The notes under the pieces were generated by a model, which saw nothing but the letters and a program-made list of their open reading frames with translations, was not told the origin of the DNA and searched no databases. Source: a virus. Taken from it: a stretch of DNA of 48,215 nucleotides. Below are positions 7,703 through 42,051 of the stretch, one piece after another. Location: positions 1-48,215 of IMG/VR virus record IMGVR_UViG_3300017967_002895; one strand, given 5' to 3'. Made by a program: the position numbers and the translations under genes. Within the stretch, counting starts at the first letter, position 1, and every line of letters starts with the position of its first letter.

Positions 7703-8710
7703 ATGCCATTAGGACCACAGAACTTTTATAACAGACTAGATCATCACCACGAAGAATGTAAAGATTGGGTCGTAGTTAATTGGAATTTAGGCAACATGTG
7801 TAACTTTACATGTTCTTATTGTCCTAGTATTCTTAACGACGGTAGCTTTGGATGGAATGATTTTGACGTAGTTAAAGGTTTTATCGATGAAGTTGTTGAG
7901 CATTACTCTCCTAGAACTGTATATTTTGAATTTACAGGCGGTGAAGTTACACTATGGAAAGACTTTGTTAAGTGTGCTGAATACATTAAAGAAATAGGAC
8001 ATGATATAGGATTTATCAGTAACAGTAGTAGAACTATAAGATGGTGGGAGAAGAATAAAGAAAAGTTCGACCACGTGTGTTTAAGTTTTCATCCAGAAGA
8101 AGGAAATCCAGAACACTTTTTAGAAGTTGTTAAAATTATGAGTCAACAGTGTAGAACACATGTTAATATTATGATGCATTACAATCCTGAAATCTGGCCT
8201 ACTTGTGTAGACGTTGCCGAAAAAGTTATTGAAATACCTAATATCTCATTAGCACTACAGCCGTTGATTATTGATTTTGGTGAAACTCTTTACTCTTACA
8301 GTGAAGAACAAATCAAATATATCGATGACCAATGGAAACTGTTGGGTAGTAAAATCAAGTATGATAAGCAGTGGAAGATATACCGCGGTAGTATGGATAT
8401 GTGTGACGATGTGAATGATTTAAAGCAGAACAGCAGCGCACATAGATTTATTAACGATAAAACAAATGACTGGGAAGGCTGGTATTGCTGGAGTGGCATA
8501 GAACAGATTGTTGTAGATTTTGACGGAAGTGTTATGATCGGCTGGTGTAGAGTTGGTGGTGCATTTGGTAATATGAAAGACCCTAAGAATATCAAGTGGC
8601 CTAGAAAACCTACTATGTGTACAAAAAGTATGTGTCATTGTAACTTTGACATTATGAGTAAAAAAGTATTACCTGCTGATTGTTATGAGGTTTTGGAAGA
8701 TGCCGATTAA
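7703..8710 (+). CDS. Radical SAM protein with C-terminal auxiliary-cluster region
   Basis: A 335-aa radical SAM enzyme. C33-N-F-T-C37-S-Y-C40 is the CX3CX2C motif that holds the SAM-binding [4Fe-4S] cluster, and F-T-G-G-E (about residues 78-82) is the SAM methionine-binding GGE motif. The C-terminal third has G-W-Y-C, D-F-D-G-S and a C-x4-C-x-C group, a SPASM/twitch-like pattern suggesting one extra Fe-S cluster. Reductive SAM cleavage would give a 5'-deoxyadenosyl radical for dehydrogenation, epimerisation or bond formation on an unknown substrate. It follows a glycosyltransferase by 8 nt with a TAGGAG site and overlaps the next rSAM gene. It is related to the genes at 37513 and 40939. Confidence 0.9.
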   Translation: MPLGPQNFYNRLDHHHEECKDWVVVNWNLGNMCNFTCSYCPSILNDGSFGWNDFDVVKGFIDEVVEHYSPRTVYFEFTGGEVTLWKDFVKCAEYIKEIGHDIGFISNSSRTIRWWEKNKEKFDHVCLSFHPEEGNPEHFLEVVKIMSQQCRTHVNIMMHYNPEIWPTCVDVAEKVIEIPNISLALQPLIIDFGETLYSYSEEQIKYIDDQWKLLGSKIKYDKQWKIYRGSMDMCDDVNDLKQNSSAHRFINDKTNDWEGWYCWSGIEQIVVDFDGSVMIGWCRVGGAFGNMKDPKNIKWPRKPTMCTKSMCHCNFDIMSKKVLPADCYEVLEDAD

Positions 8711-10079
8711 AGAAGATCCAAGCATCCCACTAGACAATAAGCAATTGCGTTTGTATGGTTCGGATGGCAAGTTCATTAGAATGAGTGTAGACGAAGCGAT
8801 TGCTAGAGGTCATAACTCTTGGAAGGGATGGAAGTGTAGTGCGGGTGTCCGAGGACTTTATATTGATTACGACGGTAACATATGGAATGCAAACTGTGCT
8901 AGTAGCCACAGAAATAGTAGCGCACATTATAATACAGTTGTAGAAGAATGGAGACTTGAACGTGAACGTGTTTTTGGTCCATATCCTCATATTGAATGGT
9001 ATAATGAAAATACAGAAGGGGGTTGGCCTCTTCCAAAAATAGGCTGGGAAACTTGTGAACAACACGTAAAATTACAGCAGACCCTAAAAGAAACTGAAGA
9101 AGCATTCTTTAGTAATTTAGGTAGAAATATGATAAAAGAAAAAATAGATACAACTGCTAGTGCTTGGAAATGGGAAAGTACACTAGATGATATACCAGAC
9201 AATTGGGGTCTATTAGGTAATATCCGTGAAGGTATAGATATACCCGAAGAGTATGTAGTATGTCCATTTAATAATTGTGGCTGCGGTGCTGATGTTATAT
9301 TAAGTAAAGCAAAAACAAAAAAGCATATAAAGTTTTTAGATGTGACTCATAACGGTTATTCTGGAACGGAACGAGGTGGCGATGATTACACAGCACAATC
9401 TATTGACAAAGGAGTCGCTGTAGAAATGAACTTTCCTATACCATATCAGATATTATGGGATATTGGTAGAAGATGTAATTATGCTTGTGATTATTGCTGG
9501 CCAGCAGTTCATAGTAACACAGAAAGATTTCCTACATATGAATCAGTTATCGAAACGATAGATATGATTATTGAACATTGGAGCGGCGGAGATCAAATCA
9601 GATGGAACTTTGGTGGAGGAGAGCCTACAATGCATCCTCAATTTATTGATATCTTAAAGCATTTGAAATCTAAAAATCAATGGACGCTGGTAACTACAAA
9701 TGGTAGTCGCAGTACTAAGTTTTGGCGTGAGGCAACACAGTATATAAATAGTGTCAATATGAGCGCACATTTTGCTAGTATGGATTTATACCGTGGAAAC
9801 GAAGACAGATTTATCGAAAATTGTAAAATAATCATGCAGCACCATGATGATGTTGATGATGATCTATGGTTAGAAATTAAACTTATGACCCCTCCAGGAT
9901 TTTTAGATAGAGCGCAAAAACTAAGAGATAGAATTTTAAACATACCACAATGGCATACCAATGGTGCAAATGGAAGAATGAAAGGTACTCTTAGTTTGGT
10001 ACCAATCAGAGATATAAATGATGCTAGTAGTCTTGTAAAATATAGTGATAACGAAATAGAATTTTTTAAGGAACAGTAA
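8700..10079 (+). CDS. Radical SAM protein with domain order reversed
   Basis: A 459-aa protein from the ATG at 8700; an ATG at 8685 would add five residues. The rSAM core is in the second half: C259-N-Y-A-C263-D-Y-C266 and F-G-G-G-E-P (304-309). The first 200 residues instead resemble the C-terminal auxiliary part of its neighbours: G-W-K-C46, I-D-Y-D-G-N, N-C66, then C188 and C193-G-C195. The auxiliary domain thus precedes the core, the opposite of the usual order. This could be a circular permutation, or a remnant of a lost rSAM gene fused to a new core. It overlaps the preceding rSAM gene by 11 nt. The substrate is unknown. Confidence 0.85.
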   Translation: MPIKEDPSIPLDNKQLRLYGSDGKFIRMSVDEAIARGHNSWKGWKCSAGVRGLYIDYDGNIWNANCASSHRNSSAHYNTVVEEWRLERERVFGPYPHIEWYNENTEGGWPLPKIGWETCEQHVKLQQTLKETEEAFFSNLGRNMIKEKIDTTASAWKWESTLDDIPDNWGLLGNIREGIDIPEEYVVCPFNNCGCGADVILSKAKTKKHIKFLDVTHNGYSGTERGGDDYTAQSIDKGVAVEMNFPIPYQILWDIGRRCNYACDYCWPAVHSNTERFPTYESVIETIDMIIEHWSGGDQIRWNFGGGEPTMHPQFIDILKHLKSKNQWTLVTTNGSRSTKFWREATQYINSVNMSAHFASMDLYRGNEDRFIENCKIIMQHHDDVDDDLWLEIKLMTPPGFLDRAQKLRDRILNIPQWHTNGANGRMKGTLSLVPIRDINDASSLVKYSDNEIEFFKEQ

Positions 10080-10081
10080 GA

Positions 10082-11770
10082 ATGAGTGATGTAGATAGTA
10101 GATTTGATCTGAATCCAGACATATACAGAACGCCTGAGCAACGTATAGACATGATTCTAGATCCAGATTGTCCACGTGAGGTACTTGAAATTGTAGCAAC
10201 ATTTGATGAAGACCAAGATGTATTACTTAGCGTACTTAGATCACCAATAATAGATGATGATATAATAGATATTGTAAAAGATAGACTCGGTGAGGTTTAC
10301 AATGATTTATTAGAATCTAAATTACTAAGAGAAGCAGACCAAAGTTCATTCTGTACTATTCCATGGATCCATGCTGGTACTAATGCGAATGGTAGTATTC
10401 GTGCTTGTTGTCAAATGATATACACGGATGAGTCATCTAATGTAGGACTTATTGAAAAAGATGATGGTACGTTATTGAATTATAATGATAAGATAAGCAG
10501 AAACAGAAACGCAAAATTTTGGAAGATGTTGCGAAGTGATATGTTGAAAGGTAAAAGACCATCTGCGTGTAAATTATGTTTTGACGAAGAAGATGCTGTG
10601 CCGTATGGCATGTCAAGAAGAAAATATGCCAATAAACATTTTCCAGATGTAGTACTAAATGCATATGAAAAAACTAAAAAAGATGGAAAAATTAAAAACA
10701 AAGATTTTCCTATTAGATGGTGGGATCTACGTTTTGGTAATAAATGTAATTTAAAATGCAGGTCTTGTGGTCCATCAAATAGTGATTTGTGGTATAAAGA
10801 TTATATGGAAATGGTAGACAGTAAAAAATCTGATAAACCATTTACAATTGATTTAGACGGAGAACATGCTGAAATCATAACAAATTCTAAAGGTCAGGTT
10901 GAGATACCTCATATGAAAAGTTGGTATGAAGGTTCACAACTATGGACTGATATTACAAAAAACTTAAAGTATATAGAAAGATTATATTTTACAGGAGGTG
11001 AACCTACTATCAATCATAAGCATAGAGAATTGTTAGAAATGATTGTTGAAAAAGGTTTATCGAAAAATATAGAGTTAGAATATAATAGTAATATGGCTGC
11101 GAGTAGTAAGAGCTTTTTCGATCTTTGGGCACAATTCAAAAAAGTAGTAATAGGGATGAGTCTTGATGGTATGGATAGTCATTTTGAATACATACGAAAT
11201 CCTGGAAAATGGAGTAAGACTGAAAGATTACTAAAAGAGTTAGATACTGATCCCAGACTTGATAATTTAGAAGCTAAAGTTACTTTAACTCTTAGTATTA
11301 TGAATGTGTTTCATGTACCAGACTTTATGTATTGGATAAAAGAACAAAACTTTAAGCGTCTTAGTAATGAAATGCATATACATTTAGTATTTGGTCCAGA
11401 GCAATATTGTATACAAAATTTACCTACATATCTTAAAAAAGAAGTAGAGGATCTATATAATAGATTTATAACTCATATCTGGAAAAGATGGCCAATCGAC
11501 ACTTGTACACAACATGATATGATATGGGCAGGTATTACTGAAACTGCTTTAAAGCAAGCGTTAGGACAAATGTGGGCAAAAGAACAAGACCCTAATATGT
11601 GGGAAAAATTTAAAAGAGACACAATTAGACTTGATAAAATAAGAAAAGAAGACTGGAAAGAAAGTCTACCAGATTTAGCGGCAGCAATAGGAAGAATGAA
11701 TGACGCAGAGAAACGAAAGCAAAGAACAAAACTCGCTGACCTCTCAAAAAAAGTCAAAACCAAAGTATGA
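10082..11770 (+). CDS. Twitch-type radical SAM protein with helical N-terminal extension
   Basis: A 562-aa protein of the group with an N-terminal twitch-like auxiliary domain. Residues 1-85 are a helical, HEAT-like acidic extension absent from its paralogues. The auxiliary cysteines follow: F-C91-T-I-P-W, C109-C110 and C163-x-x-C166. The core has C222-N-L-K-C226-R-S-C229 and F-T-G-G-E-P (303-308). A later G-M-S-L-D-G and Y-I-R-N-P-x-x-W segment recurs in all members here. The start is 2 nt after the preceding rSAM stop. The next gene overlaps its end by 71 nt. It is a probable oxidoreductive or coupling enzyme, substrate unknown. Confidence 0.9.
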   Translation: MSDVDSRFDLNPDIYRTPEQRIDMILDPDCPREVLEIVATFDEDQDVLLSVLRSPIIDDDIIDIVKDRLGEVYNDLLESKLLREADQSSFCTIPWIHAGTNANGSIRACCQMIYTDESSNVGLIEKDDGTLLNYNDKISRNRNAKFWKMLRSDMLKGKRPSACKLCFDEEDAVPYGMSRRKYANKHFPDVVLNAYEKTKKDGKIKNKDFPIRWWDLRFGNKCNLKCRSCGPSNSDLWYKDYMEMVDSKKSDKPFTIDLDGEHAEIITNSKGQVEIPHMKSWYEGSQLWTDITKNLKYIERLYFTGGEPTINHKHRELLEMIVEKGLSKNIELEYNSNMAASSKSFFDLWAQFKKVVIGMSLDGMDSHFEYIRNPGKWSKTERLLKELDTDPRLDNLEAKVTLTLSIMNVFHVPDFMYWIKEQNFKRLSNEMHIHLVFGPEQYCIQNLPTYLKKEVEDLYNRFITHIWKRWPIDTCTQHDMIWAGITETALKQALGQMWAKEQDPNMWEKFKRDTIRLDKIRKEDWKESLPDLAAAIGRMNDAEKRKQRTKLADLSKKVKTKV

Positions 11771-13838
11771 TTTTAAAAGCGAAGACAGAGATCAAATTGT
11801 TCTAACTGTTATTCAGCATGAAGAAGAAATGCGTCATGCCAACAGTCATTTAGGAACAGATCCTGTTTCTTCTGTTTCTAAAAATTATACATATTGGAGT
11901 CAAAGAGAGGATACTGGATATGAGTATTGGTCTAGTTTAAATCCTCCTAGAAAAAATGATAAAATATCTTTTGTTGTTTGTCCTAGTTGGGGTATTATAT
12001 TTCCTCCATATAACGCAGCACGTATATCATCATTGCTGAGAGAAAATGGTTATGAAGTAACAGTATATGATACTAATATTGAATCTTATCATTATCTTAA
12101 AGATAAGTTAGATTATGATCCATGGGACGCAATATACTGGGATCATTGGATTGTTCCAAACTATGATACTAAAATAAAACCTGCGTTAACTCCACTATTA
12201 GACGAAACAGTACAGCGTATTATTAACGATGGTGCTAGATTTGTTGGCTTCAGTTTGTATGCTACAAATACTGTTCCTAGTGCGTATATGATAAAAGAAT
12301 TAAAGCGTCTTGCGCCCGATATCACAATATTAATAGGTGGCCCAGAAGCGTTCCAAGACTGGTTAGATGATTATGAAGAACCCAATCCTCATAAAAGACA
12401 TCCATATCCTTTGGCAGATATAATAGAAAACTATGATGTTAGAATTATAGGTGAAGGTGAAGAAATGTTATTGGGTTACCTAGAAAACTATAGTGAATAT
12501 TCAAAAGAAGATGGTCCTCATGTTTTCGGAGGAGCAAATAGCAGACTTGATTTAAACCAAATGCCTTTTCCAGATTATTCAGATTATGATTTGTCTCTAT
12601 ATTCTCACCAAGGCGGTGTTAGTATTGAAACTAGTAGAGGTTGTATTGCTCTATGTAGTTTCTGTTCCGAGACACACTTTTGGAAGTTTAGATCCCGTGA
12701 AAGTACAAATGTTATAGATGAAATGCAGCATCAGATTGATACTTATGGTACAAGACGATTTTGGTTTGTTGATAGTTTAGTAAATGGTAATATAAAAGCG
12801 TTTAGAGATTTAGTAGATCAGATAATTGAACGTAGTATGGACATCAGATGGAATAGCTATGCTAGATGTGATGGACGTATGGATTTAGAATTCTTTCATA
12901 AAATCAAAGCGAGTGGTTGTAGCTTGTTAAGTTTTGGAGTTGAAAGTGGAAGTGAAAAGGTTCTACTTGATATGAAAAAGAAAATTAAAGTTTGGGAAAT
13001 AGAAGACAACTTACGTGATGCTAAAATAGCAGGAATAGAAAATCATATTAACTGGGTCGTCGGATTCCCAACTGAAGGACCTGCTGAATGGTGTCATAGT
13101 TTACACGTTTTGTATAATATACGAAATTGGGCCACGGTTATCTCGCCGGGCATGACATGCGGTGATGCTCCACTGAGTGATATGAACAAGAACTGGAAAA
13201 ACTATAAAATTCAATGGAGTGAAACTCCATGGGATAATAAGTTTATGAGTAATTGGTATACAGAAAATTATGAGAATACTATTCTACATAGGGCATTACG
13301 ATTGAAGTACATGAATCAATGGTTGTCTATGTGTATCAACGAAGCAGAAGGAACTATAATTAATTCTCAGAGTCGTCCGGGAATGAGTAAATTTGTAGAA
13401 TTTGAACAGAATAATCCCGGAGAATATAAGGATTACATACCACAACGTTCAAATCAAAATTTTAATATTTTTAGTGGTGATACCGCCCAAAATAATTTAG
13501 CTGCTACATTGGCAAATGAAAACTTACCACATATGTGGATTATGTATCAAGCGTTCAGTGGACATAAATTTAAAATGACTTGGGATCCGGAACTAGATAT
13601 GCAGGAGTTTGGTGTGAGCCTTGCCACTATGCTATCAGGCGAAGCAGAGTGGGAAGTTGATGACAACGGCGACTATAGCTTTAAATGCTGGTATGAATTT
13701 GAGCATGTAGCACAAAACGAAGACAGGTCAGTAGAAGAACATGAACTAAAAAGAGAAGATATGTCTTTTGATAAACAGTATTTTGAACTAACAGGAAACG
13801 TATCAGAGTTCGATGGAGTTGAATTTATAAATGAATGA
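11700..13838 (+). CDS. B12-binding-type radical SAM protein
   Basis: A 712-aa protein of the class B (cobalamin-binding) rSAM type. Residues about 87-260 resemble the Rossmann-like B12-binding domain (FVVCPSWG, then Y-x-V-T-V-Y-D, V-G-F-S, I-L-I-G-G-P-E and I-I-G-E-G-E). The core follows with R-G-C315-I-A-L-C319-S-F-C322 and later G-V-E-S-G-S and V-V-G-F-P-T-E-G. Residues about 480-712 are a long extension I do not recognise. Class B members are often methylases or ring-forming enzymes. The ATG at 11700 is preceded by AGGAAGA; an ATG at 11829 would avoid most of the 71-nt overlap but has a weaker site. Confidence 0.88.
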   Translation: MTQRNESKEQNSLTSQKKSKPKYDFKSEDRDQIVLTVIQHEEEMRHANSHLGTDPVSSVSKNYTYWSQREDTGYEYWSSLNPPRKNDKISFVVCPSWGIIFPPYNAARISSLLRENGYEVTVYDTNIESYHYLKDKLDYDPWDAIYWDHWIVPNYDTKIKPALTPLLDETVQRIINDGARFVGFSLYATNTVPSAYMIKELKRLAPDITILIGGPEAFQDWLDDYEEPNPHKRHPYPLADIIENYDVRIIGEGEEMLLGYLENYSEYSKEDGPHVFGGANSRLDLNQMPFPDYSDYDLSLYSHQGGVSIETSRGCIALCSFCSETHFWKFRSRESTNVIDEMQHQIDTYGTRRFWFVDSLVNGNIKAFRDLVDQIIERSMDIRWNSYARCDGRMDLEFFHKIKASGCSLLSFGVESGSEKVLLDMKKKIKVWEIEDNLRDAKIAGIENHINWVVGFPTEGPAEWCHSLHVLYNIRNWATVISPGMTCGDAPLSDMNKNWKNYKIQWSETPWDNKFMSNWYTENYENTILHRALRLKYMNQWLSMCINEAEGTIINSQSRPGMSKFVEFEQNNPGEYKDYIPQRSNQNFNIFSGDTAQNNLAATLANENLPHMWIMYQAFSGHKFKMTWDPELDMQEFGVSLATMLSGEAEWEVDDNGDYSFKCWYEFEHVAQNEDRSVEEHELKREDMSFDKQYFELTGNVSEFDGVEFINE

Positions 13839-14718: not shown

Positions 14719-15363
14719 ATGGGATTTGTAGGTGTAACTAATTATAAAAAGAGTAGTGAAAGATTACCCGGTAAACATCATATGGAGTTTTACGATGGTA
14801 AATCTCTTGTAGATGTAAAACTAGAACAATTGTTTGCAGCCGGAGCAGAACACGTTTATATTAGCACAGATGATACAGAAGTATCTAATACAGAAAATGT
14901 CACGTATGTTCAACGTGATTCTGAATATTGTAACAATGTAACTAGATTTACATATGTATTAGAACAGATATATAACGGTGTACCAGTTGAAGATGACCAA
15001 GATGTAATTTATACATTTGTTTGTTGTCCTCTGTTTAAAAGATATGATGAATTATATAATGTATATAAGAATACAGGAAAGAACCATATTGCTGTACACA
15101 ATAGTTCACATTATTATTTGGATGTTAATAAAAGACCTATTAATTTTACATTCGGTCTTTGGCATCCATACAGTCAAGGAATAGATCCAGTATATATGTT
15201 TCCATATGCAGGTACAGTCTGTAAGATGAAAGATTTAAGAGAAGCAAAATACATGATACCAATGGAGTTCGAATATTTTAATATGAATCAATTCGAAGCT
15301 ATCGATATTGATGAATTGGAAGAGTTTGAATTAGCACAGGCATTGTATAGTCATTATAAATAA
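14719..15363 (+). CDS. CMP-sugar cytidylyltransferase-like protein (NeuA/KdsB type)
   Basis: A 214-aa protein with the layout of CMP-sialic acid / acylneuraminate cytidylyltransferases. K-S-S-E-R-L-P-G-K (11-19) corresponds to the CTP-binding S-x-R-x-P-x-K loop. V-Y-I-S-T-D-D-T-E-V (46-55) matches the conserved V-x-x-S-T-D-D-x-x-I strand, and a late I-D-I-D-x-x-E-E-F-E-L-A-Q-A stretch matches the family C-terminus. Such enzymes activate a nonulosonic or related acidic sugar with CTP. The lysine replacing the usual N-terminal arginine is unusual. AAGAAAGG precedes the ATG. No other sialic-acid synthesis genes are visible, so the sugar may come from the host or from the rSAM enzymes. Confidence 0.75.
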   Translation: MGFVGVTNYKKSSERLPGKHHMEFYDGKSLVDVKLEQLFAAGAEHVYISTDDTEVSNTENVTYVQRDSEYCNNVTRFTYVLEQIYNGVPVEDDQDVIYTFVCCPLFKRYDELYNVYKNTGKNHIAVHNSSHYYLDVNKRPINFTFGLWHPYSQGIDPVYMFPYAGTVCKMKDLREAKYMIPMEFEYFNMNQFEAIDIDELEEFELAQALYSHYK

Positions 15364-15367
15364 TCCT

Positions 15368-29347: not shown

Positions 29348-30056
29348 TATATTAGTTTTTGGCTGTAGCTACACACAAGGGTTTAAAGCTCCATACGAAG
29401 AAAGCTGGAGTTGGCAACTAAGCAAAAGACATCCACACTTAAATTTTATAGATTTGAGTAAAGGCGGTAGTAGTGTACAATTTCAATATTTCTTATACAG
29501 TATATTATTACAAGAAATGAATCCAGACGCTGTGATATTTCAACTTACTACTCCATTCAGAATTACTTTATGGCCAGAAGTGTTTGACTGGAAAAAGTAT
29601 ACTGTAAAACGTTCAGATAACTATACATTCTTTGATAACGATTTATTAGAAAAAGATTGTGTATTTGCTAGTAGCGCCTGGTTAACTACTCATGGTATAT
29701 TTACGGGTAATAGACCAAAAGACTTAACAAACTTACCTGGTATCGCTCCTGATTATATAGAATGGGTACAATCATATTTTGAAAATGTAAATAGTCATCA
29801 GCATAAGATTAATTTTCAACCACTAGCAGATAGAATTAACCGTGAAGTAGATTTATGCTTTGAACACAAAGACAGTGTAAGCGGAGCAGAACATCAATAT
29901 AACAGTGCAGAGCCAATACATTGTATAGAAACAATGTTTGGTGATGACTTTAAAAAATATTCTGCTGATTCAGCTAGTCACTTTACAGTAGAAGGTTGTT
30001 TACGAGTAGCAGATTGGATCGAAAAGGATTTTTTAAAACCTAGAGGTCTAGTATGA
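29340..30056 (+). CDS. SGNH hydrolase-like protein
   Basis: A 238-aa protein with D-I-L-V-F-G-C-S10-Y-T-Q-G (block I), G-G-S-S (block II) and D-A-V-I-F-Q-L-T strands. A late D-S-A-S-H-F-T-V-E-G segment could supply the Asp-x-x-His pair. It lies between two rSAM genes with overlaps at both ends (8 nt and ATGA), so it is expressed with them and probably works on the same product as an acyltransferase or esterase. Confidence 0.7.
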   Translation: MPDILVFGCSYTQGFKAPYEESWSWQLSKRHPHLNFIDLSKGGSSVQFQYFLYSILLQEMNPDAVIFQLTTPFRITLWPEVFDWKKYTVKRSDNYTFFDNDLLEKDCVFASSAWLTTHGIFTGNRPKDLTNLPGIAPDYIEWVQSYFENVNSHQHKINFQPLADRINREVDLCFEHKDSVSGAEHQYNSAEPIHCIETMFGDDFKKYSADSASHFTVEGCLRVADWIEKDFLKPRGLV

Positions 30057-33813: not shown

Positions 33814-35210
33814 CAAAGAAAAGTGATACATTCTGTATTTTACCGTGGGTACATCTGAGTACAAGACCAGATGGTTCAATGCGTGTATGTTGTACTGCTA
33901 ATGCATCCAGTGTTGGACCAACTAATGATAAAGAACACGGTGGTATGGTAGGTATTCTAAAAGATGATGAAGGTAGACCCAACAATCTGAATGTAACTGA
34001 TTTTCAAACTGCTTGGAATAGTAAGTACATGAAGAATGTACGCAGACAGATGATGAACAGTGAAGTCCCACCGAGTTGTGTAAAATGTTTTAAAGAAGAG
34101 GCTGCTGGACACAATTCAAAACGTATGTGGGAGACTAATTACTGGAGTCAACGTGTAGATGTTGACAGATTACTAGATAATACAACTGAAGATGGTGAAG
34201 TCCCACCAGAGTTGACGTATATTGATTTGCGATTTGGTACAAAATGTCAGTTAGCATGTGTTATGTGTTCGCCACACGATAGTTCAGGTTGGATTAAAGA
34301 CCATTCAAAGATATTCCCACTTGTTCAGAATAATTCATTGAAGGAAACAATGCAATGGGCTGATAAGGGCAGCACAAATGGTAGTTCTTACAACTGGCAT
34401 AAACAAAATCCAGTATTTTGGGAACAATTCTATTCACAGATACCGAATATGCAGCAGATTTATTTTGCTGGTGGCGAAAGTCTTATTATTGAAGAACACT
34501 ATGAGATATTAGAAGAATGCATACGTCAGGGTCATGCTAAAAACTTAGAACTACGTTATAATTCAAACGGAGTTGAGTGGCGTGATGACTTATTTGACTT
34601 GTGGAAAGAATTTAAACTAGTTCGTTTCCATTATAGTGTAGATAGTATTGGTGAAATGAATAGTTATATTCGTTATCCTAGTGAGTGGAAGCGTACTGAA
34701 GAAGTTTTTCATATACTAGATAATGAAACAACTGATAATGTTGAGATTACAGTTGCGTGTGCTGTACAAGCACTTAATATCTACTATTTGCCAGACTTTA
34801 TTCGTTGGAAATTAGAACAAGGATTTAAAAAGATTAATATGTGGCCGTTTGGAGCTGGTGGTATTAATTATCACTTTGTATACCATCCACCACATTTAAA
34901 TGTTAAAGTTCTACCTACTGAATTTAAAGAAAAATGTAGAAAAAAATACGAAGAGTTTTATCCATGGTGGGAGGCTAACTGGGAAAAAGGTATTCCTGGC
35001 TGGCACAAGGGTAAAGTAAATTATGATGAATGGCGTAGCGCAAGTTATGGTATTGATAGATTAGAAGGGATGCTCAAATTTATGGAGAGTGAGGATTGGA
35101 GTATTCGCCTTCCCGAATTAAAAGAATATTTAATGCTGTGTGACAAACAAAGAAACTTAAATTTTTACGAAGTATTTAAAGATATGAAAGGAATATTCGA
35201 TGGCATTTGA
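33810..35210 (+). CDS. Twitch-type radical SAM protein
   Basis: A 466-aa protein. Auxiliary cysteines: F-C9-I-L-P-W, C27-C28, C90-x-x-C93. Core: T-K-C146-Q-L-A-C150-V-M-C153, with F-A-G-G-E-S (219-224) in place of GGEP. S-V-D-S and Y-I-R-Y-P-x-x-W follow. The start overlaps the previous rSAM stop (ATGA). Its end overlaps the PP-loop gene at 35200 by 11 nt, whose AAAGGA site lies within its last codons, so the rSAM and ATP-pyrophosphatase are probably translated together. Confidence 0.9.
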   Translation: MTKKSDTFCILPWVHLSTRPDGSMRVCCTANASSVGPTNDKEHGGMVGILKDDEGRPNNLNVTDFQTAWNSKYMKNVRRQMMNSEVPPSCVKCFKEEAAGHNSKRMWETNYWSQRVDVDRLLDNTTEDGEVPPELTYIDLRFGTKCQLACVMCSPHDSSGWIKDHSKIFPLVQNNSLKETMQWADKGSTNGSSYNWHKQNPVFWEQFYSQIPNMQQIYFAGGESLIIEEHYEILEECIRQGHAKNLELRYNSNGVEWRDDLFDLWKEFKLVRFHYSVDSIGEMNSYIRYPSEWKRTEEVFHILDNETTDNVEITVACAVQALNIYYLPDFIRWKLEQGFKKINMWPFGAGGINYHFVYHPPHLNVKVLPTEFKEKCRKKYEEFYPWWEANWEKGIPGWHKGKVNYDEWRSASYGIDRLEGMLKFMESEDWSIRLPELKEYLMLCDKQRNLNFYEVFKDMKGIFDGI

Positions 35211-36078
35211 TGTTAGTTTAAGTAATAAAAGTTATGAAATGCACAATATCAGTACTGATGTATTACATCAAGTAGACGAGGCATTATATCCGTATGATCC
35301 GACTTGGAAACGTGTTGGTGTAAATGTTAGTGGCGGCGCAGATAGTGCTGTTGGCACAGCGATACTAGCAGAGTTAATTGAAAAACATGGAAACAACACA
35401 GCAATCTATTTTTTAACAAACGTAAGAGTTTGGAATAATAGACCTTGGGCAGCACCTATTAGTGTAGAAGTATATAATAAAATACGTGAAATGTTCCCAA
35501 ATGTTTGTATGGAACGTATTCAGAATTTTATTCCACCAGAGTTAGAAGAAGGCGCTATTGGTATTATAGAGAAACTAGGGACAACCGGTGATAGGCAATG
35601 TACACAGAGTTTCAATAGTTTTGCTGTTCACACATATAAGTTAGATGCTGTATATAATTTTATTACAAATAATCCAGCACCTGATGTGGTAAATCATACC
35701 AAAGGTCCATGGGATAGAGTATGGAATGAAGAAAGATTATCAACTACCAGCGTATGTCCACAATATATTGAAAAAGATGATACAGCCTTCAGAGATCCAG
35801 TACTGGTTCATCCTTGGAAACTTATTACCAAAGACTTTATTATGGCACAATATTATAGACGTGGTTGGGAAGATTTACTTAACACTACTCGTAGTTGTGA
35901 AGGTGATAAAGTTATATTCCCAGATGATTTTGTGGATCACACCAAATATGTACATGGCGAAACACCACTACCCACGTGCGATCAGTTATCAGATGATCCT
36001 AATAGAGGCTGTTATTGGTGTGCCGAACGTGAATGGGCAAAAGCAACAGCAAAGGAAAAGTTAGGTGAAACCAACTAA
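35200..36078 (+). CDS. PP-loop ATP-pyrophosphatase, QueC-like
   Basis: A 292-aa protein with V-S44-G-G-A-D-S49, the PP-loop that binds ATP and releases pyrophosphate in N-type ATP-pyrophosphatases (QueC, TilS, GuaA, NAD synthetase). Near the C-terminus R-S-C-E and G-C-Y-W-C-A-E-R-E-W resemble the Zn-binding end of QueC. The family adenylates a carboxyl or carbonyl for amide, nitrile or thio chemistry. It lies between two twitch-type rSAM genes with overlaps on both sides. A second member is at 40316, sharing N-P-x-x-D-V-V. No other queuosine genes are visible, so a role in deazaguanine synthesis is not supported. Confidence 0.8.
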   Translation: MAFDVSLSNKSYEMHNISTDVLHQVDEALYPYDPTWKRVGVNVSGGADSAVGTAILAELIEKHGNNTAIYFLTNVRVWNNRPWAAPISVEVYNKIREMFPNVCMERIQNFIPPELEEGAIGIIEKLGTTGDRQCTQSFNSFAVHTYKLDAVYNFITNNPAPDVVNHTKGPWDRVWNEERLSTTSVCPQYIEKDDTAFRDPVLVHPWKLITKDFIMAQYYRRGWEDLLNTTRSCEGDKVIFPDDFVDHTKYVHGETPLPTCDQLSDDPNRGCYWCAEREWAKATAKEKLGETN

Positions 36079-37516
36079 AGATAATACTTTTTGCTGGTTT
36101 CCATTTTCATTACTGGCGTTAAAGACTTGGCATTACAAGTATGGCATTACGAATGCTGCGCCGTGCTGTAATTCGATACGTCCTGATATGCCTGATCCGT
36201 TAAATAACCACATAGAACTGATATCTAATCCTGATACTATTACCGCAGAAGAAATATTTCATGGCAAGACGATGAATGAAATAAGAGAGTATGCGTTAAC
36301 TAACAGAAGACATCCTTCATGTGCTACGTGTTGGAAGATGGAAGAAAACGGAAATGGAGATGATGTTTATAGTTATAGATTAGACAGCATGCCTCCTGGC
36401 TTATTAAAAATAACAGACGAAGACGAATTAGATGATCTTATAGAAAATCCAAAATTAAGTTCTATTGATTTTGCGTTTGGTGAAAACTGTAATTTGAGAT
36501 GTCGTATGTGTCAACCAGGTTTAAGTAATAAACTTAGATTAGACTATCAATATTTTGCCGATAACAATGTGGACACAAGTGGTATTCAAGGATTTGATTG
36601 GCAGAAACGCAGAGATACTATCATAAAAGAAAATTCTCTTACTGAATTATCGTTAGAAGAACAAAAGAGAACGGATCAAGAATTATACATAGGTGGCGAA
36701 TACCAAGTATACAACTGGAAAGACGGAAAACAGTGGGAAAATATATTAGACAATATACATAATTTAAAACATATAAAAGCAACTGGTGGTGAAACTCTTA
36801 TGAGTAAACCTTTTATACAGTTTTTAGATACGGCTATTGAAACTGGAGCCTCAAAAAATATTATGTTAGAGTTCCATACTAATGCTACTAAGTTTTCAAA
36901 TGAAAATATAGAAAAGTTAAAAAAGTTTGACGGTCTTGTATTAAATTGTAGTATCGATGGATATGGGAAAAATTATGAATATATAAGATACCCTATGAAA
37001 TTTTCAGTATTAGAAAAGAGTTTAAGAAATATTTTAGAATCTGTCAAAGATATTAATTATAAAAGAACACCATATGGATTCATAAAAAACTTTAGTTTCA
37101 ATGTCGTTCTTAGTGTGCTAAATGCACATTACTTAGAGGATTTAGTAGAGTTTCATTATAGTTTACATAAAGAGTATGGTAGAAAATCAAATGAATTTGC
37201 TGTATTCTTTTTAGACTTGCTTTGGCCCGAAGAAAAATACATAAATGTTAAGTTTTTACCTAAACATATAAAGTTAGACTTGATAGAAAAATTTAAAAAT
37301 ATCAAAGAAAATTATAGTCATAATAATGATTATTATCATACTAATATGACAAGTGGTATTTCTTTCTTAGAAGCAAACTTAGATTTAGAAATAACAGAAC
37401 AACATAGATTGAATATGCTAAAAGAAATAAAAGTGTTTGACATGAGTAGAAATCAATGTTATAATGATTACATTCATCCGGACATAATAGAATTTTTGGA
37501 GACTCCAATAAAATGA
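36065..37516 (+). CDS. Twitch-type radical SAM protein (GTG start)
   Basis: A 483-aa protein. The start appears to be GTG at 36065, 14 nt inside the PP-loop gene, behind AAAGGA; the conserved N-terminus begins at once, so no later ATG fits. Auxiliary cysteines: F-C10-W-F-P-F, C34-C35, C86-x-x-C89. Core: C142-N-L-R-C146-R-M-C149 and A-T-G-G-E-T (239-244). Then S-I-D-G and Y-I-R-Y-P. It shares the K-x-W-x-x-x-(K/Y) insert with the minus-strand gene at 31131. The substrate is unknown. Confidence 0.88.
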   Translation: MKPTKDNTFCWFPFSLLALKTWHYKYGITNAAPCCNSIRPDMPDPLNNHIELISNPDTITAEEIFHGKTMNEIREYALTNRRHPSCATCWKMEENGNGDDVYSYRLDSMPPGLLKITDEDELDDLIENPKLSSIDFAFGENCNLRCRMCQPGLSNKLRLDYQYFADNNVDTSGIQGFDWQKRRDTIIKENSLTELSLEEQKRTDQELYIGGEYQVYNWKDGKQWENILDNIHNLKHIKATGGETLMSKPFIQFLDTAIETGASKNIMLEFHTNATKFSNENIEKLKKFDGLVLNCSIDGYGKNYEYIRYPMKFSVLEKSLRNILESVKDINYKRTPYGFIKNFSFNVVLSVLNAHYLEDLVEFHYSLHKEYGRKSNEFAVFFLDLLWPEEKYINVKFLPKHIKLDLIEKFKNIKENYSHNNDYYHTNMTSGISFLEANLDLEITEQHRLNMLKEIKVFDMSRNQCYNDYIHPDIIEFLETPIK

Positions 37517-38727
37517 AAGATTTAGAATACACTGATTTTACAGCAATCAATTTGCTGGATGGTGACAATCTTACTGTAACGTGGGATGTGGGTAGACGTT
37601 GTAACTATGACTGTACATATTGTCCACCACATAGACACGATAACTTTTCACCACATGCTAATTTAGAAACTTTAAAAAAGACTGGCAGATTTATTTTTGA
37701 TTACGCAAATTTAATGATGCCTTATAAAAAAAATAAAGGTATAAACATCAATTTTACTGGTGGTGAACCTACAAACAATCCAAACTTTTTAGAGTTTGGC
37801 GAATGGCTACAGCAAACATGGCGTGAAAATTATAAAGATGATTATAGACTAAACTTGACTATTACTAGTAACGGTGCTTTCGGTAAAAAGATGGCAGACA
37901 GTGTTTGCGAAAACTATGGCTTTATGACTATCAGTTACCATGCGGAAGCACATTCAAGTTTAAAAAAACAAGTTGTTAATAACATTTACTATCTAACTGA
38001 AAAAGGATTCCCAATCAAAATTAATGTTATGTTCCATGCTGAATATTGGGATGAATGTAAAGAATTATGTATGCGTTTCGAACGTGATGGTATCGGTTAC
38101 GTTCCGCGTATGATTGGTGAACACGAAGATAGTAAAAATAGTTATGCCCATAAATATACTGAAGAACAATTACAGTGGATGAAAGATTATTGGGCAGATA
38201 AAAATGCAGCACTTAATAAAGATAAAACTACGGAAGAAGCAGAAGCAGAAGTAGGACACGAAGCTGGTGCTGTACAAGTCGAAAAAACAGAAGAAAAGAA
38301 ATTTGCTAGACAGTTGGGTAGACCGTGTTGTGGTAGTCGCACAATGGAAACTTGCGGTACAGATGGTTGCTGGAGTAAAAGCACATTTTTAGAGTTTGCT
38401 AAGTTTCGAAACTGGCAATGTAGTGTCAACTGGTTCTTTTTACATATTGAACAACAAACAGATACTATCTGGCATCACCAAACTTGTCAAGCACGTTTTG
38501 ATGGTACACGTGGTCCAATTGGATCTATTTCAGAATGCGATAAGATTATAGAAGAGTTCCGTACTAATATAGAAAATAAAACAATGCCTATTATAACATG
38601 CCCTCTAGGTCCTGGAAAGCATTGTGGATGCGGTATGTGTACACCTAAGAGTATTGAACGTGATGAACTAATGAGTATTTTACCTCAACACATTGAAGAC
38701 ATGAGTATATTTGAGAACACAAAATGA
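37513..38727 (+). CDS. Radical SAM protein, G-R-R-C-N-Y group
   Basis: A 404-aa rSAM enzyme: T-W-D-V-G-R-R-C30-N-Y-D-C34-T-Y-C37, with I-N-F-T-G-G-E-P-T (about 74-82). The C-terminal half is unusually Cys-rich: P-C-C-G-S-R, C-G-T-D-G-C-W, W-Q-C, C, then C-P and H-C-G-C-G-M-C, enough for two auxiliary Fe-S clusters. An acidic, Glu/Ala-rich insert (about 235-262) separates the core from this region. ATGA overlaps occur at both ends. It is related to the proteins at 7703, 8700 and 40939. Confidence 0.9.
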   Translation: MKDLEYTDFTAINLLDGDNLTVTWDVGRRCNYDCTYCPPHRHDNFSPHANLETLKKTGRFIFDYANLMMPYKKNKGININFTGGEPTNNPNFLEFGEWLQQTWRENYKDDYRLNLTITSNGAFGKKMADSVCENYGFMTISYHAEAHSSLKKQVVNNIYYLTEKGFPIKINVMFHAEYWDECKELCMRFERDGIGYVPRMIGEHEDSKNSYAHKYTEEQLQWMKDYWADKNAALNKDKTTEEAEAEVGHEAGAVQVEKTEEKKFARQLGRPCCGSRTMETCGTDGCWSKSTFLEFAKFRNWQCSVNWFFLHIEQQTDTIWHHQTCQARFDGTRGPIGSISECDKIIEEFRTNIENKTMPIITCPLGPGKHCGCGMCTPKSIERDELMSILPQHIEDMSIFENTK

Positions 38728-39353
38728 ATGTAAATGAATTAATTGAAGCAAGCAAAAACGCTGAACATTGCCAACGTAACTGGGATCATACACAATCGGT
38801 TCCAGAAGAACATGTACATGCGCTAATTGATATAGCAATAAACATGCCTACTAAATCTAATGATGAATTTTACAGATTAGTAGTATCAACCGATAGAGAT
38901 TTAAATCGTAAATTTTATGAATTGGCAGAAGATCCAGATAATCAACAAACTGTAGGTAGAAACGCACAAGTTGATGCACCTGTGGTGTTTACTTGGTTTG
39001 AACTTAAAAAAGAAGGCATTGGAGATTGGAAAAACACTCAAGGATTTTTTGATCCATGGTTATTAAATGCCAGAACTGCTATGGGAATTAGCAGTGGCGC
39101 TGTAGCATTTGCAGCGAATGCTTTAGGATACCGTACCGGATACAATCAATGTTTTGATTCAAAAGATATTGCTGAATTAGTAACAGAAGTTACAGGCGAA
39201 ACAGATATTGAATTTTTTTCAAAACCACACTATCAATTGGGTATAGGTTTTCCTAATAAAGAACATACGTGGAATACTGTACTAAATGATGATGGTACTG
39301 TTTTTAGAAATATAGTTTCTCATAGTAAATCTATAAAAACATATGTAATATAA
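38724..39353 (+). CDS. Nitroreductase-like flavoprotein
   Basis: A 209-aa protein resembling the FMN-dependent nitroreductase family: N-terminal helix, P-T-K-S-N-D-E-F-Y-R-L-V-V (the family uses P-S-x-x-N-x-x-P-W), a central D-P-W-x-x-N-A-R-T-A-M-G-I-S-S-G helix start, A-L-G-Y-R-T-G and a Y-Q-L-G-I-G-F-P strand. Such enzymes reduce or dehydrogenate substrates with FMN, and some act in azoline oxidation or lipid/sugar redox steps. It overlaps the preceding rSAM stop (ATGA), so it could complete or prepare a redox step of the same pathway. A degraded active site is possible. Confidence 0.65.
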   Translation: MNVNELIEASKNAEHCQRNWDHTQSVPEEHVHALIDIAINMPTKSNDEFYRLVVSTDRDLNRKFYELAEDPDNQQTVGRNAQVDAPVVFTWFELKKEGIGDWKNTQGFFDPWLLNARTAMGISSGAVAFAANALGYRTGYNQCFDSKDIAELVTEVTGETDIEFFSKPHYQLGIGFPNKEHTWNTVLNDDGTVFRNIVSHSKSIKTYVI

Positions 39354-39365: not shown

Positions 39366-40319
39366 ATGTGGGATATGAAAACAATAGAATGGTTAGATAT
39401 AGAACTAACAAGTTTTTGTAACATCCAATGTAAAGGATGTTTTAGAGTTATATCTAAACATGCTGATAAAATATTAAACAAAGAATATATTACAATTGAT
39501 ACAATACGTGAACGATTTCAAAAAGATATGTTTCCAAGTATTAAGATTATAAATTTTTGTGGCAGTGTAGACGAACCCACATCGCACCCACAATTCTTTG
39601 ATATCATAAGACACTTTGCTGATTGGGGTGCGCATATTAACATTGCTACTAATGGCAGTTTGCGTCACCCACAATGGTGGACAGACTTAGCAGGACTACT
39701 ACCAGAGAGCCACGCAGTTACCTGGGGAATCGATGGAAGTGATGAACTAAGTGAAGTTTATAGAGAAGGCAGTAGCTTTAAAAAAGTAGAACAAAACTAT
39801 AAAGCATTTAACGCAGCAGGTGGTCGAAGTAATTGGCAGTTCATTGTTTTTGAACATAACGAACATCAGATGGAAGAAGCAAAACAAAAAGCATCTGACG
39901 AAGGGTTTAAAAATTTTAAAACTATTATTAGTCATCGTAAAGACACTAAAGGTGTGAAAGCGGCAAAGACTGAAGACATAGATAACGCAGTAGAGATACC
40001 ATATGTGAGTTGTAAATATGGAAATCAAAAGCGTATCTTTATTAATCATACTGGTAACGTAATACCTTGTTGTCATTTAAATAGTAAAATGATGGAATAT
40101 AATGTAACAGGTATTCACAAAGATGAATTTGAAACACTACTAGAAGAAAACGATTATAAAAATACGATAAATTTAGAAAACGCAAGTATTGAAGATGCCA
40201 TAAACAGTAAAGTGTGGAAGGGCATTATTGATAGTTGGGATGGGGATAATCCTGTTCCTCGCTGTATGCAAGTATGTAAGCAAATGAAGCGTGATACATT
40301 TATAAAAGAAGAATTATGA
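39366..40319 (+). CDS. Radical SAM protein, H-N-E-H group
   Basis: A 317-aa rSAM enzyme: T-S-F-C18-N-I-Q-C22-K-G-C25, F-C-G-S-V-D-E-P in place of GGEP, and F-E-H-N-E-H-Q-M-E-E-A. The C-terminal part has P-C-C-H and C-M-Q-V-C. It is the third and shortest member of the group at 25812 and 28253. It is separated from the nitroreductase gene by 12 nt, with AGAGAAT before the ATG. It overlaps the PP-loop gene (ATGA), placing an H-N-E-H rSAM directly before a QueC-like ATPase. Confidence 0.88.
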   Translation: MWDMKTIEWLDIELTSFCNIQCKGCFRVISKHADKILNKEYITIDTIRERFQKDMFPSIKIINFCGSVDEPTSHPQFFDIIRHFADWGAHINIATNGSLRHPQWWTDLAGLLPESHAVTWGIDGSDELSEVYREGSSFKKVEQNYKAFNAAGGRSNWQFIVFEHNEHQMEEAKQKASDEGFKNFKTIISHRKDTKGVKAAKTEDIDNAVEIPYVSCKYGNQKRIFINHTGNVIPCCHLNSKMMEYNVTGIHKDEFETLLEENDYKNTINLENASIEDAINSKVWKGIIDSWDGDNPVPRCMQVCKQMKRDTFIKEEL

Positions 40320-40942
40320 TTATAGAAACACCGAATGAACCTATAGGAGTATCAGTCAGTGGAGGTGCAGATAGCGCACTTCTATTGTACTTACTGATGT
40401 CTGTACATAAAAATAAAATGTACATATGTACAGTAGCAGCAGCAGATAAATTTGAACGTAATGCAAAAAGAACTCCTTCTATCATAGAGTACTGTAGCAA
40501 TGCTACTGGATTTACAAACTATGACCATAGATTAAGACATATACCACATCAGACATTAGAAAACTTGAACGAGGATCTTAGTTCATTATTAGATAGTAAT
40601 ACTATAAGTTGTTTTTATAATGGTGCTACAGCTAATCCGCCGGCAGATGTCGTTGAGAGTTTCATTAGTAAAGATGGTCCAGTAGATGATAGAACACCAG
40701 ACGGTAATCGCCCTGAAATTCTGTTTGATGGTAAAGTTAGATTACCATTTGCTAATATAGATAAACGTGGTATTGCTAATTTATATAGAAAACATAACTT
40801 ATTAGATTTGTTTGAGTTAACTAGTAGTTGTGAATGGATGGATGACACGATGAAACATCTACCAGACATTGATCCTACAGTAGAACAGTGTGGTTATTGT
40901 TGGTGGTGTGAAGAAAGACAATGGGGATTTGGACGACTATGA
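40316..40942 (+). CDS. PP-loop ATP-pyrophosphatase, QueC-like (short)
   Basis: A 208-aa protein with V-S15-G-G-A-D-S20 (PP-loop), N-P-P-A-D-V-V in the middle, S-S-C-E and a C-terminal C-G-Y-C-W-W-C-E-E-R-Q-W-G-F resembling the Zn site of QueC (C-G-x-C-x-x-C-x-x-R). It is a shorter paralogue of the protein at 35200. It would activate a carboxyl or similar group as an adenylate. The start overlaps the rSAM gene before it and the stop overlaps the rSAM gene after it (both ATGA), tying it to rSAM chemistry. Confidence 0.8.
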   Translation: MIIETPNEPIGVSVSGGADSALLLYLLMSVHKNKMYICTVAAADKFERNAKRTPSIIEYCSNATGFTNYDHRLRHIPHQTLENLNEDLSSLLDSNTISCFYNGATANPPADVVESFISKDGPVDDRTPDGNRPEILFDGKVRLPFANIDKRGIANLYRKHNLLDLFELTSSCEWMDDTMKHLPDIDPTVEQCGYCWWCEERQWGFGRL

Positions 40943-42051
40943 GTGAAGACTTAAAATGGAGTGAGTATGACTTTACTAAAATACCTTTTGATGATTTAGT
41001 ACAAGTAGGACAGCGTACATTACTTTACCGTGACTTATTTACAGTGTCATGGTTACTTGGACGCTTCTGTAACTATAGATGTAGTTATTGCTGGCCCTAT
41101 GCCAGAAGTGACAGAAAAGATCACAGACCAACAGAGTTGTGTCTAGCAACAGTAGATGAAATAAAGAGGCAAGCACGTGATAATGGATTTAATAGTTTTC
41201 ACTTTAGTCTTAGTGGGGGCGAGCCTACCTTCCACCCTGGATACTTGGACATACTGGGCCATTTGGCTGATGATGTTCCTAATACTAACTATACTAGTAT
41301 ACATATGACTAGTAATTGTTCTCGCCCACTTAAGTGGTTTGAGGATTATGTGGAAAGAGCGAAACCTTTTCATAGAGCAAGTATTACAGCAAGTTTACAT
41401 ACAGAGCATTTAGACACGAAGGAGAAGATGCAGGAATTCGCAGACAAATTAATCCTGTGTCAGGAACACGATGTACAGATTACAATCAACATGGTCATGG
41501 TTCCCGAGTGGTTTGAAAAAGATTGGGAAAATGCTCTTTTCTTCCACGAGCAAGGAATCAACGTTACCCTCAAACCCCAAAGTGACCCAACAGCGTCAAA
41601 AGTTGTTGAAGGATATACAGAAGAACAAATGAAGCGTTTGTGGAATGGTATGCCTCAAATGGCTTATACTGAAGTAAAAAGAAAATGGGAGGGTAGACCG
41701 AAGCCTACATTTGAAATGCCACAGTACGCTATTGGTGAAAATGATAAAAGCGTTCCATGGCATATGCAGGTAGAGTTCACTGATTCAAAAGGTAAGAAGT
41801 GGTATATGGACCAAGCAGAACGTTTCAATGCTTTTAACTTTAATAATTTTGAAGGATGGAGTTGTAACAGTGGATATCAAGGAATTATTATACGTGAACC
41901 TGACGGATCCATCAAACGTTCATATAGTTGTGCAGATCAACCATTAGGATATATTGAGAGTGGATTTAAACTATTTGATAAACCGATGCCTTGTATTAGC
42001 AAAAGTTGTGTAAGTTCAGCCGATAGTAAAATACCAAAGAGAAAAGTCTAA
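40939..42051 (+). CDS. Radical SAM protein, G-R-x-C-N-Y group
   Basis: A 370-aa rSAM enzyme. The ATG at 40939 gives the ATGA overlap typical of this operon; an ATG at 40921 would add six residues and a longer overlap. Core: S-W-L-L-G-R-F-C44-N-Y-R-C48-S-Y-C51 and F-S-L-S-G-G-E-P-T-F-H-P. The C-terminal region has G-W-S-C, a second Cys after E-P-D-G-S, and C-I-S-K-S-C, an SPASM-like set shared with the protein at 7703. It ends in a 4-nt convergent overlap with the oxygenase gene. It closes the rSAM island. Confidence 0.9.
   Translation: MSEDLKWSEYDFTKIPFDDLVQVGQRTLLYRDLFTVSWLLGRFCNYRCSYCWPYARSDRKDHRPTELCLATVDEIKRQARDNGFNSFHFSLSGGEPTFHPGYLDILGHLADDVPNTNYTSIHMTSNCSRPLKWFEDYVERAKPFHRASITASLHTEHLDTKEKMQEFADKLILCQEHDVQITINMVMVPEWFEKDWENALFFHEQGINVTLKPQSDPTASKVVEGYTEEQMKRLWNGMPQMAYTEVKRKWEGRPKPTFEMPQYAIGENDKSVPWHMQVEFTDSKGKKWYMDQAERFNAFNFNNFEGWSCNSGYQGIIIREPDGSIKRSYSCADQPLGYIESGFKLFDKPMPCISKSCVSSADSKIPKRKV

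Follow-up and report, generated by a model that had tools for sequence, protein, structure and literature searches.

What use does a virus have for fifteen radical SAM (S-adenosylmethionine) genes placed almost next to one another? This question is raised by the IMG/VR record IMGVR_UViG_3300017967_002895, a complete database entry of 48,215 bases classed as linear, which was analysed over its whole length and is referred to as the window. A sequence-only reading of the window had counted fifteen such genes between positions 7,703 and 42,051, interleaved with sugar-type and other enzymes, and had proposed an undescribed biosynthetic island. We find that three of the fifteen (g28, g35 and g42, here called the core or the trio) are kept in related phages while the remainder is swapped, which suggests a mix-and-match decoration of the virus particle or of the host surface.

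Radical SAM proteins of the window

Searching the window with PF04055 gave 15 separate stretches with zero internal stops, 12 of them above the curated cut-off and the remaining 3 at E-values of 4e-8 to 4e-5. When whole proteins were scanned, 13 of the 15 exceeded the Pfam cut-off, the exceptions being g29 and g30. The former is rescued by the N_Twi_rSAM profile (228 bits against a cut-off of 170), and the latter aligns to g28 with 32% identity over 362 columns (E 9e-39). The CX3CX2C motif is intact in every protein. All fifteen genes are thus placed in the superfamily, as the sequence-only reading had claimed, and chance or mis-annotation is ruled out by the profile scores and the intact motifs.

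The gene coordinates of that reading agree with ours, with three open reading frames (ORFs; g29, g33 and g34) probably starting later, as each then has its ATG 12 nt behind an ATAAATA motif; the later starts are used in the list below. Its statement that neighbouring genes overlap by 1-14 nt holds in part. Neighbours mostly overlap or abut, and at nine places in the whole window the gap between genes reaches 25 nt or more, but as ORFs not all overlaps are of 1-14 nt (for instance g11/g12).

Seven proteins (g11, g29, g32, g33, g34, g35 and g37) pass the N_Twi_rSAM criterion (NF033640, above 170 bits for the whole protein). The other eight fail it and were not assigned to this family. Members of the N_Twi group have conserved auxiliary cysteines N-terminal to the radical SAM domain. 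In g28, g30 and g40, which are mutually related, the auxiliary cysteines are C-terminal, and Pfam SPASM is above its cut-off in g40 only. A loosely related group is formed by g09, g10, g38 and g42, and g12 combines a B12-binding domain with a radical SAM domain.

g09, 7703..8710, plus strand: radical SAM (PF04055), variable
g10, 8685..10079, plus strand: radical SAM (PF04055), variable
g11, 10082..11770, plus strand: N_Twi radical SAM by profile, variable
g12, 11700..13838, plus strand: B12-binding radical SAM, methyltransferase-like, variable, 7 viral loci found
g28, 25812..26897, plus strand: core radical SAM, C-terminal auxiliary cysteines, PDB profiles led by BlsE and tetraether synthase
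g29, 26890..28215, minus strand: N_Twi radical SAM, probable start
g30, 28253..29347, plus strand: radical SAM, paralogue of g28
g32, 30053..31162, plus strand: N_Twi radical SAM
g33, 31131..32405, minus strand: N_Twi radical SAM, probable start
g34, 32446..33813, plus strand: N_Twi radical SAM, probable start
g35, 33810..35210, plus strand: core N_Twi radical SAM, relative encoded in 294 viral stretches
g37, 36065..37516, plus strand: N_Twi radical SAM
g38, 37513..38727, plus strand: radical SAM, in 9 of 17 islands at 45% identity
g40, 39366..40319, plus strand: radical SAM/SPASM
g42, 40921..42051, plus strand: core radical SAM, 73-90% identity to phage relatives and 56-66% to those of Bdellovibrionota regions

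Conservation and variability

A total of 294 viral stretches have a confirmed relative of g35, and the best 80 of these were kept; for g42 a relative was confirmed in at least 578 out of 600 stretches. Mapping was carried out on 19 stretches from 17 related records, and 17 of the stretches cover the island. Throughout these 17 such scaffold genes as are present keep a constant order (g02, g04, g05, g06, g07, g08, g24/g26, g28, g35, g42), with the variable genes sitting between them. Radical SAM matches were present in all 23 related records searched, at 8-19 per record.

Relatives of g28, g35 and g42 were found in 16 of 16 phage relatives, one duplicate record being omitted. As these relatives were picked via g35, only the conservation of g28 and g42 is an independent result. 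Genes of the g26 type are present in 13 of the 16 stretches, some of which are incomplete, as well as in several Bdellovibrionota regions, and g08 or g24 in 12 of the stretches. Clustering at 45% identity sorts the 186 radical SAM proteins, those of the window included, into 85 families, of which 56 have a single member, and outside the trio the widest families reach 9, 8 and 8 islands. This count was made without G010 (which has the same island as G001) and the side stretches G001b and G002b, and with one gene from G016. The relatives thus do not keep the set as a single block: the trio is retained, and the other twelve radical SAM genes vary.

An independent set of g42 loci was obtained from 80 loci by taking away 9 already seen and 25 without full flanks. 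All 46 loci that were left hold 4-12 radical SAM ORFs within 21 kb (median 7). In a collection of 50,697 phage records no match was found for g02, g06, g08 or g42, and two weak records each were found for g12, g28 and g35.

The cysteine motif is kept in 168 of 171 radical SAM-like genes of the relatives. The genes are under purifying selection, with a median ratio of nonsynonymous to synonymous substitution rates (dN/dS) of 0.069 for the variable genes (169 pairs), 0.069 for g28 (254 pairs), 0.074 for g35 (595 pairs) and 0.078 for g42 (52 pairs), calculated on non-independent pairs of 80-98.5% identity with dS from 0.1 to 1.5 and a median dS near 1. Decay of the radical SAM genes is ruled out by the motif retention and by dN/dS values of about 0.07, and the earlier statement that selection appears to keep them is supported.

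Two further observations concern the islands of the relatives: one RuBisCO-large-type protein is found among their genes, and one island encodes a tryptophan-halogenase protein (L134:2968-4464).

Phage context and fibre linkage

The 92-kb record G008 has counterparts of 51 of the 53 listed window genes, at 98-100% protein identity. Its gene order is gp25- and gp6-like baseplate genes, a 3369-aa ORF, g01-g03 and then the island. Further T4-type genes in G008 are gp55-, gp46/47-, portal-, gp21- and gp23-like, and its T4-type proteins have 22-45% identity to those of Pelagibacter phage HTVC008M. PF07068 (gp23) is present in 9 of 20 related records, which have sizes of up to 383 kb, and the best 20 of the 754 records related to g52 (metallopeptidase-VWA) are phages of 284-490 kb. 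Because of the T4-type genes in G008 and the g52 relatives in large phages, we take the window to be a fragment of a distant and probably large T4-like phage. A misbinned bacterial island is ruled out by the T4-type genes of the near-identical G008.

With baseplate and fibre genes upstream and a hypervariable content, the island has the position and character of a host recognition cluster. Host recognition clusters of T4-like marine phages are bordered by VrlC and the neck gene gp14; for these two, the HTVC008M proteins gave no blastp match in G008 at E 1e-4. The genes on the fibre side are as follows.

g01-g03, 140..3960, plus strand: tail-fibre-side genes, the g02 family being directly 5' of g04 in relatives
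g02, 825-1898, plus strand
g03, 1930-3960, plus strand: between g02 and g04, Big_9/cadherin domains and tail-fibre PHROG matches
g04, 4019..4411, plus strand: 130 aa, between fibre and glycosyltransferases

The upstream neighbour of g04 is a g02-family protein in 12 of the 12 relatives where it could be read, 4 of these neighbours having been found by hidden Markov model (HMM) and not by BLAST. The GYX (collagen-like) repeats of g02 were considered as acceptor and dropped, as, of all the stretches looked at, just those from the phage of the window show a run of them.

Sugar-type enzymes

The genes that follow g04, and several genes placed between the radical SAM genes, are of sugar type or accompany such genes.

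g05, 4411..5280, plus strand: GT8-like, 21% identity to g06 (E 7e-7), without Pfam match
g06, 5277..6134, plus strand: GT8 (glycogenin-like) glycosyltransferase by PDB profile
g07, 6131..6715, plus strand: recurrent between g06 and g08
g08, 6717..7694, plus strand: GT-A-like fold
g14, 14719..15363, plus strand: cytidylyltransferase (CTP_transf_3), weakly PseF-like
g20, 17860..18834, minus strand: PF14099 polysaccharide lyase, N-terminus lipoprotein-like, one of six genes of the minus-strand block g16-g21 within the island
g23, 20092..21627, plus strand: carbamoyltransferase (NodU-like)
g24, 21662..22762, plus strand: paralogue of g08 (35% identity)
g25 and g26, 22755..25003, plus strand: mutually related, without family or PDB match above cut-off
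g27, 25003..25812, plus strand: SGNH-like candidate, similar to g31; we assume the SGNH label from its motif

The g06 family matches glycogenin-type GT8 proteins at E 1.1e-5, and the presence of GT8 also agrees with a host recognition cluster. The model of g08 (predicted local distance difference test, pLDDT, 88.7) has a GT-A-like fold in the first 190 residues. Its best structural match, at Z 10.1 with 3.2 A over 138 residues, is a Leptospira glycosyltransferase. Both D64 and D66 are invariant across the 20 rows of the alignment. Other enzyme types encoded in the window are CTP_transf_3, carbamoyltransferase, PP-loop, nitroreductase-like, hydroxylase-like and SGNH-like.

Family matches were also collected for 62 unassigned proteins from the islands of relatives, for which 25 of 48 families were listed. 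They include Epimerase, UDPG_MGDP_dh, DegT, AMP-binding and sugar-type methyltransferases, mostly with one protein each; matches to Epimerase, GDP_Man_Dehyd, RmlD and Polysacc_synt_2 may represent one and the same protein, and the Epimerase-type and DegT matches were not traced to an individual protein. Ten of the 62 representatives, eight of them from G002, were scanned singly and six of the ten matched a family. UDPG_MGDP_dh (UDP-glucose/GDP-mannose dehydrogenase), Methyltransf_14, TylF and NTP_transf_3 were all traced to G002.

Of the two products that the sequence-only reading had put forward, a glycan is thus the better supported by the GT8, GT-A-like, cytidylyltransferase, carbamoyltransferase and SGNH-like genes, and there was little positive support for a modified peptide.

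Clues to the substrate of the radical SAM proteins were taken from PDB profiles. The N_Twi group lies near SkfB, tetraether synthase and BlsE. For the g28 group BlsE, whose substrate is a cytosyl sugar, comes first and is nearly tied with tetraether synthase.

Membrane segments and promoter motif

Using a plain hydropathy rule, 0 of 408 genes in the islands of relatives and no window protein had two or more hydrophobic segments. There is thus no evident candidate for a flippase, a polymerase or an anchor transferase of the Gtr type. Gtr-type serotype conversion cassettes have a multi-pass membrane flippase together with an anchor transferase, and this combination was not found. For the bacterial regions described below the figure is 20 of 280 ORFs, which is not a like-for-like control since flanking chromosomal genes are counted.

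ATAAATA is part of the T4 late promoter. The window has fewer copies of it than expected by chance (13 against 32). The full TATAAATA was rejected as promoter, with 2 copies in the window against 10 expected. In the stretches 112 of 190 copies of ATAAATA are located 8-60 nt before an ORF start, compared to 15-22% for four control 7-mers, and the spacing peaks at 12 nt (24 of 190). Five window copies, at 15356, 28227(-), 32417(-), 32434 and 46193(-), have exactly this spacing to an ATG; should ATAAATA be a late promoter here, the transcripts would start with hardly any leader. The motif precedes g01 (by 39 nt), g03 (by 32 nt) and g08 as well as the radical SAM genes g29, g30, g33 and g34, and in G008 it is also found before gp25 and a fibre-like gene. 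Its placement agrees with part of the island being expressed late, but is no proof of it.

A counterpart in Bdellovibrionota

Scanning genomes with the N_Twi profile gave 110 confirmed stretches. Of the 77 loci kept, 52 have Bdellovibrio-, Bacteriovorax- or Oligoflexia-type names, as counted from titles. N_Twi proteins above the cut-off were found in 94 of 290 Bdellovibrionota genomes with at most 6 candidates scored per genome; one Bdellovibrionota genome, G262, had up to 50 candidate stretches at first look, of which 6 were scored. The g42 profile matched 17 of the 290 genomes, 7 of these being known already from the N_Twi scan. Among 398 genomes of the phylum of G033 it matched G033 alone, and this bin contains phage capsid genes.

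Relatives of g28, g35 and g42 occur together in 10 of the 16 Bdellovibrionota regions, at identity thresholds of 40%, 50% and 50%, respectively. The bacterial trio is often accompanied by g08/g24- and g26-type genes, and two GT2 families each recur in 6 regions. In region L157 asparagine-synthase and acyltransferase/SGNH genes are located near the trio. A search for gp23 found none in 18 such genomes, the control of one search having matched nowhere.

In the g35 tree phage and bacterial sequences form separate supported groups. The g42 tree supports the phage group and is weak in the remaining part. Deriving a host from these trees was therefore given up, the g35 groups being apart and the g42 support outside the phage group being weak.

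A single region, L251 (G195:C21:118000-137999), contains g35, a g08-g24 fusion and g42 followed by g02-g04-g05-g06-x-g08, and it is the only bacterial region with the g02-g06 block. Ahead of the block are genes which we take to be PheS/PheT-like. L251 as a phage contig was rejected, as only the block matched phage proteins on 138 of 140 kb. The region comes from a single assembly and may be chimeric.

Possible functions of the island

Our preferred, tentative explanation is that soluble proteins make a glycan with the help of radical chemistry, and that this glycan decorates the fibre of a T4-like phage. Since a soluble sugar pathway adjoins a fibre gene, decoration of the fibre is the simplest reading. 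The island would be a cassette for soluble glycan synthesis, located in the region for host recognition and served at least partly by late-type promoters. Here g05, g06, g08/g24 and g26 would, together with the core proteins g28, g35 and g42, make a common sugar-based unit. An exchangeable set, comprising the twelve further radical SAM proteins with the B12-dependent type among them, cytidylyltransferase, carbamoyltransferase, PP-loop and SGNH-like proteins, would alter this unit by epimerisation, deoxygenation, dehydrogenation or C-methylation, and each phage would end up with a glycan variant of its own. The likeliest acceptor would be the adjoining g02-type fibre protein, and the phage may benefit through altered adsorption or recognition.

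A more far-reaching version appears unlikely when taken as a whole. It describes a combinatorial virion decoration in an apparently uncultured phage group, in which a fibre glycan built by the trio is diversified by the radical SAM pool, the radical sugar pathway being shared with Bdellovibrionota via old gene exchange.

A number of findings weigh against fibre decoration. Regarding conservation, it was by g35 that the records of the relatives were selected, and the spacing of the trio is loose: of the 46 independent g42 loci, 21 have g35 and 9 have g28 at a distance of up to 10 kb. Regarding the acceptor, g03 intervenes between g02 and g04 in the window, g02 is a predicted fibre-side protein without a PHROG match, and g02 occurs in 1 of the 16 bacterial regions only (L251), so that the trio can work without it. 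Regarding the chemistry, structure comparison of the g35 model (pLDDT 85.1) gave equal scores of Z 11-12 for a sactipeptide enzyme, BlsE, anSME, viperin, SkfB and DesII. A substrate from structure was given up for this tie between peptide, sugar and nucleotide enzymes, and it is the gene context that points to a sugar. Nucleotidyltransferases such as MobA come within about one Z unit of the glycosyltransferases for g08, and Foldseek gave g08 a single match at E 0.001 or below (hyaluronan synthase). The hydropathy rule is a plain one, and a host flippase could export a glycan made by the phage. The ATAAATA motif precedes only 4 of the 15 window radical SAM genes and is found before g15, g22 and the HNH gene g50 too, while none was found before gp23 of G008. 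The sugar enzymes traced in relatives come mostly from G002, and the polysaccharide lyase g20 suits a host-surface theme. Our confidence in fibre decoration is lowered by the motif being before g50 and not gp23, and by the share of G002 among the traced sugar enzymes.

The main rival is modification of the host surface, which we consider somewhat unlikely. Activated sugars altered by the radical SAM proteins would be handed to host machinery and end up in lipopolysaccharide or capsule, excluding competing phages or predators. For an analogous pelagimyophage cluster a modification of the O-chain has been suggested in print (PMC7029224). The GT2 families beside the Bdellovibrionota trio, the neighbours of the trio in L157, and g20 and the cytidylyltransferase g14 in the window point in the same direction. 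None of the 408 island genes looks multi-pass membrane, however, and the tight linkage to a fibre-side gene in the relatives also argues against the host surface.

It is improbable that the proteins modify a peptide or protein without any sugar, the radical SAM enzymes acting on fibre residues or, in the manner of ribosomally synthesised and modified peptides, on a small peptide. In favour of this, the structures closest to g35 include SkfB and a sactipeptide enzyme, and a conserved 74-aa protein is encoded beside the core, between g26 and g28 (as in L133, L130 and L145), in 67 of 87 loci. Neither the window, examined for ORFs of at least 60 aa, nor four of the relatives with the trio (G002, G003, G009 and G018) encode this protein. 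As an obligatory precursor it was dropped, being missing from the window. The scaffold moreover includes glycosyltransferase-type proteins, and it is BlsE that tops the near tie in the g28-group profiles.

An auxiliary metabolism (host cofactor or iron-sulphur support, or an antiviral-type nucleotide) is the least probable explanation, although iron-sulphur related genes are described (PMC5332604) for a T4-like environmental genome with 12 radical SAM genes and several window proteins have a weak similarity to the viperin profile, as viperin membership (NF038283, above 180 bits) was rejected with a highest score of 55.7 bits (g10) and 85 families varying by phage fit a fixed metabolic task poorly.

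If fibre decoration by a radical sugar pathway is correct, viruses would be a large reservoir of diverse, untested radical SAM enzymes acting around one common scaffold, and the prediction of substrates and reactions would become tractable by comparison. The radical SAM genes reported without explanation from pelagimyophages and Campylobacter phages would gain a possible role. A pathway for phage decoration would also be tied to one of Bdellovibrionota, which is open to genetic tests in a culturable predator.

Comparison with known systems

The island of the window is a real and striking form of phage island. Calling it undescribed was too strong, as radical SAM-rich T4-like phages and fibre-side sugar islands with radical SAM and GT8 genes are already known in print. 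In Zaragoza-Solas 2020 (PMC7029224), a hypervariable host recognition cluster of pelagimyophages is described on the fibre side, with GT8 genes and radical SAM cassettes. It shares with the island of the window its variability and its place beside the tail fibres of a T4-like phage. The fibre-side island of Pelagibacter phage Mosig EXVC030M has carbamoyltransferase, nitroreductase, hydroxylase, aminotransferase, epimerase and MoaA-like genes. Counting by PF04055 gives 2 radical SAM proteins for Mosig, 1 for HTVC008M, 6 for Vibrio phage K566 and 11 for Campylobacter phage F379, compared to the 15 of the window. These four isolates are the sample on which the sequence-only reading's statement that most phages have few or no such genes was checked.

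For the Campylobacter T4-like phages CP220 and CPt10, Timms 2010 (PMC2853527) gives 11 and 12 radical SAM proteins, respectively, and an interchangeable five-radical-SAM module with an amidinotransferase. Phage F379 has a nucleotide-sugar transferase in a radical SAM cluster near baseplate genes. The Campylobacter phages have fewer radical SAM genes per cluster than the window island and only a weak similarity to it (24% over half of g28), and in the phage collection search g35 and g42 had no match in them.

The 183-kb T4-like environmental genome TARA_ERS488813_N000010 (Nishimura 2017, PMC5332604) is the one with 12 radical SAM genes. In the section consulted these are treated as iron-sulphur metabolism, and that section contains no island, core or glycan reading. 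The chromosomal loci of Bdellovibrionota share the trio with the phage, but have GT2 families nearby. Glycosylation of mycobacteriophage virions (Freeman 2023, as described in PMC12619734) employs phage glycosyltransferases, which place glycans on virion proteins. The acceptors there are capsid and tail tube, and radical SAM chemistry is not mentioned in the passage describing it. Among the matches listed from titles and abstract openings of open-licence literature, nothing dealt with the trio, with its counterpart in Bdellovibrionota or with the linkage to the fibre.

Remaining genes and related bins

The genes between and behind the last radical SAM genes are listed here.

g36, 35200..36078, plus strand: resembling g41, a PP-loop protein (26%, E 3e-6), but without a family match of its own
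g39, 38724..39353, plus strand: nitroreductase-like, slightly under the Pfam cut-off
g41, 40316..40942, plus strand: PP-loop, ATP_bind_3 slightly under and QueC slightly over the cut-off
g43, 42048..42677, minus strand: Asp/Asn beta-hydroxylase-like, right edge of the island

The genomes of three public bacterial bins, L161 (Chloroflexi), L160 (Gammaproteobacteria) and L159 (Rickettsiales), contain gp23, and contigs from this group of phages appear to be present in them.

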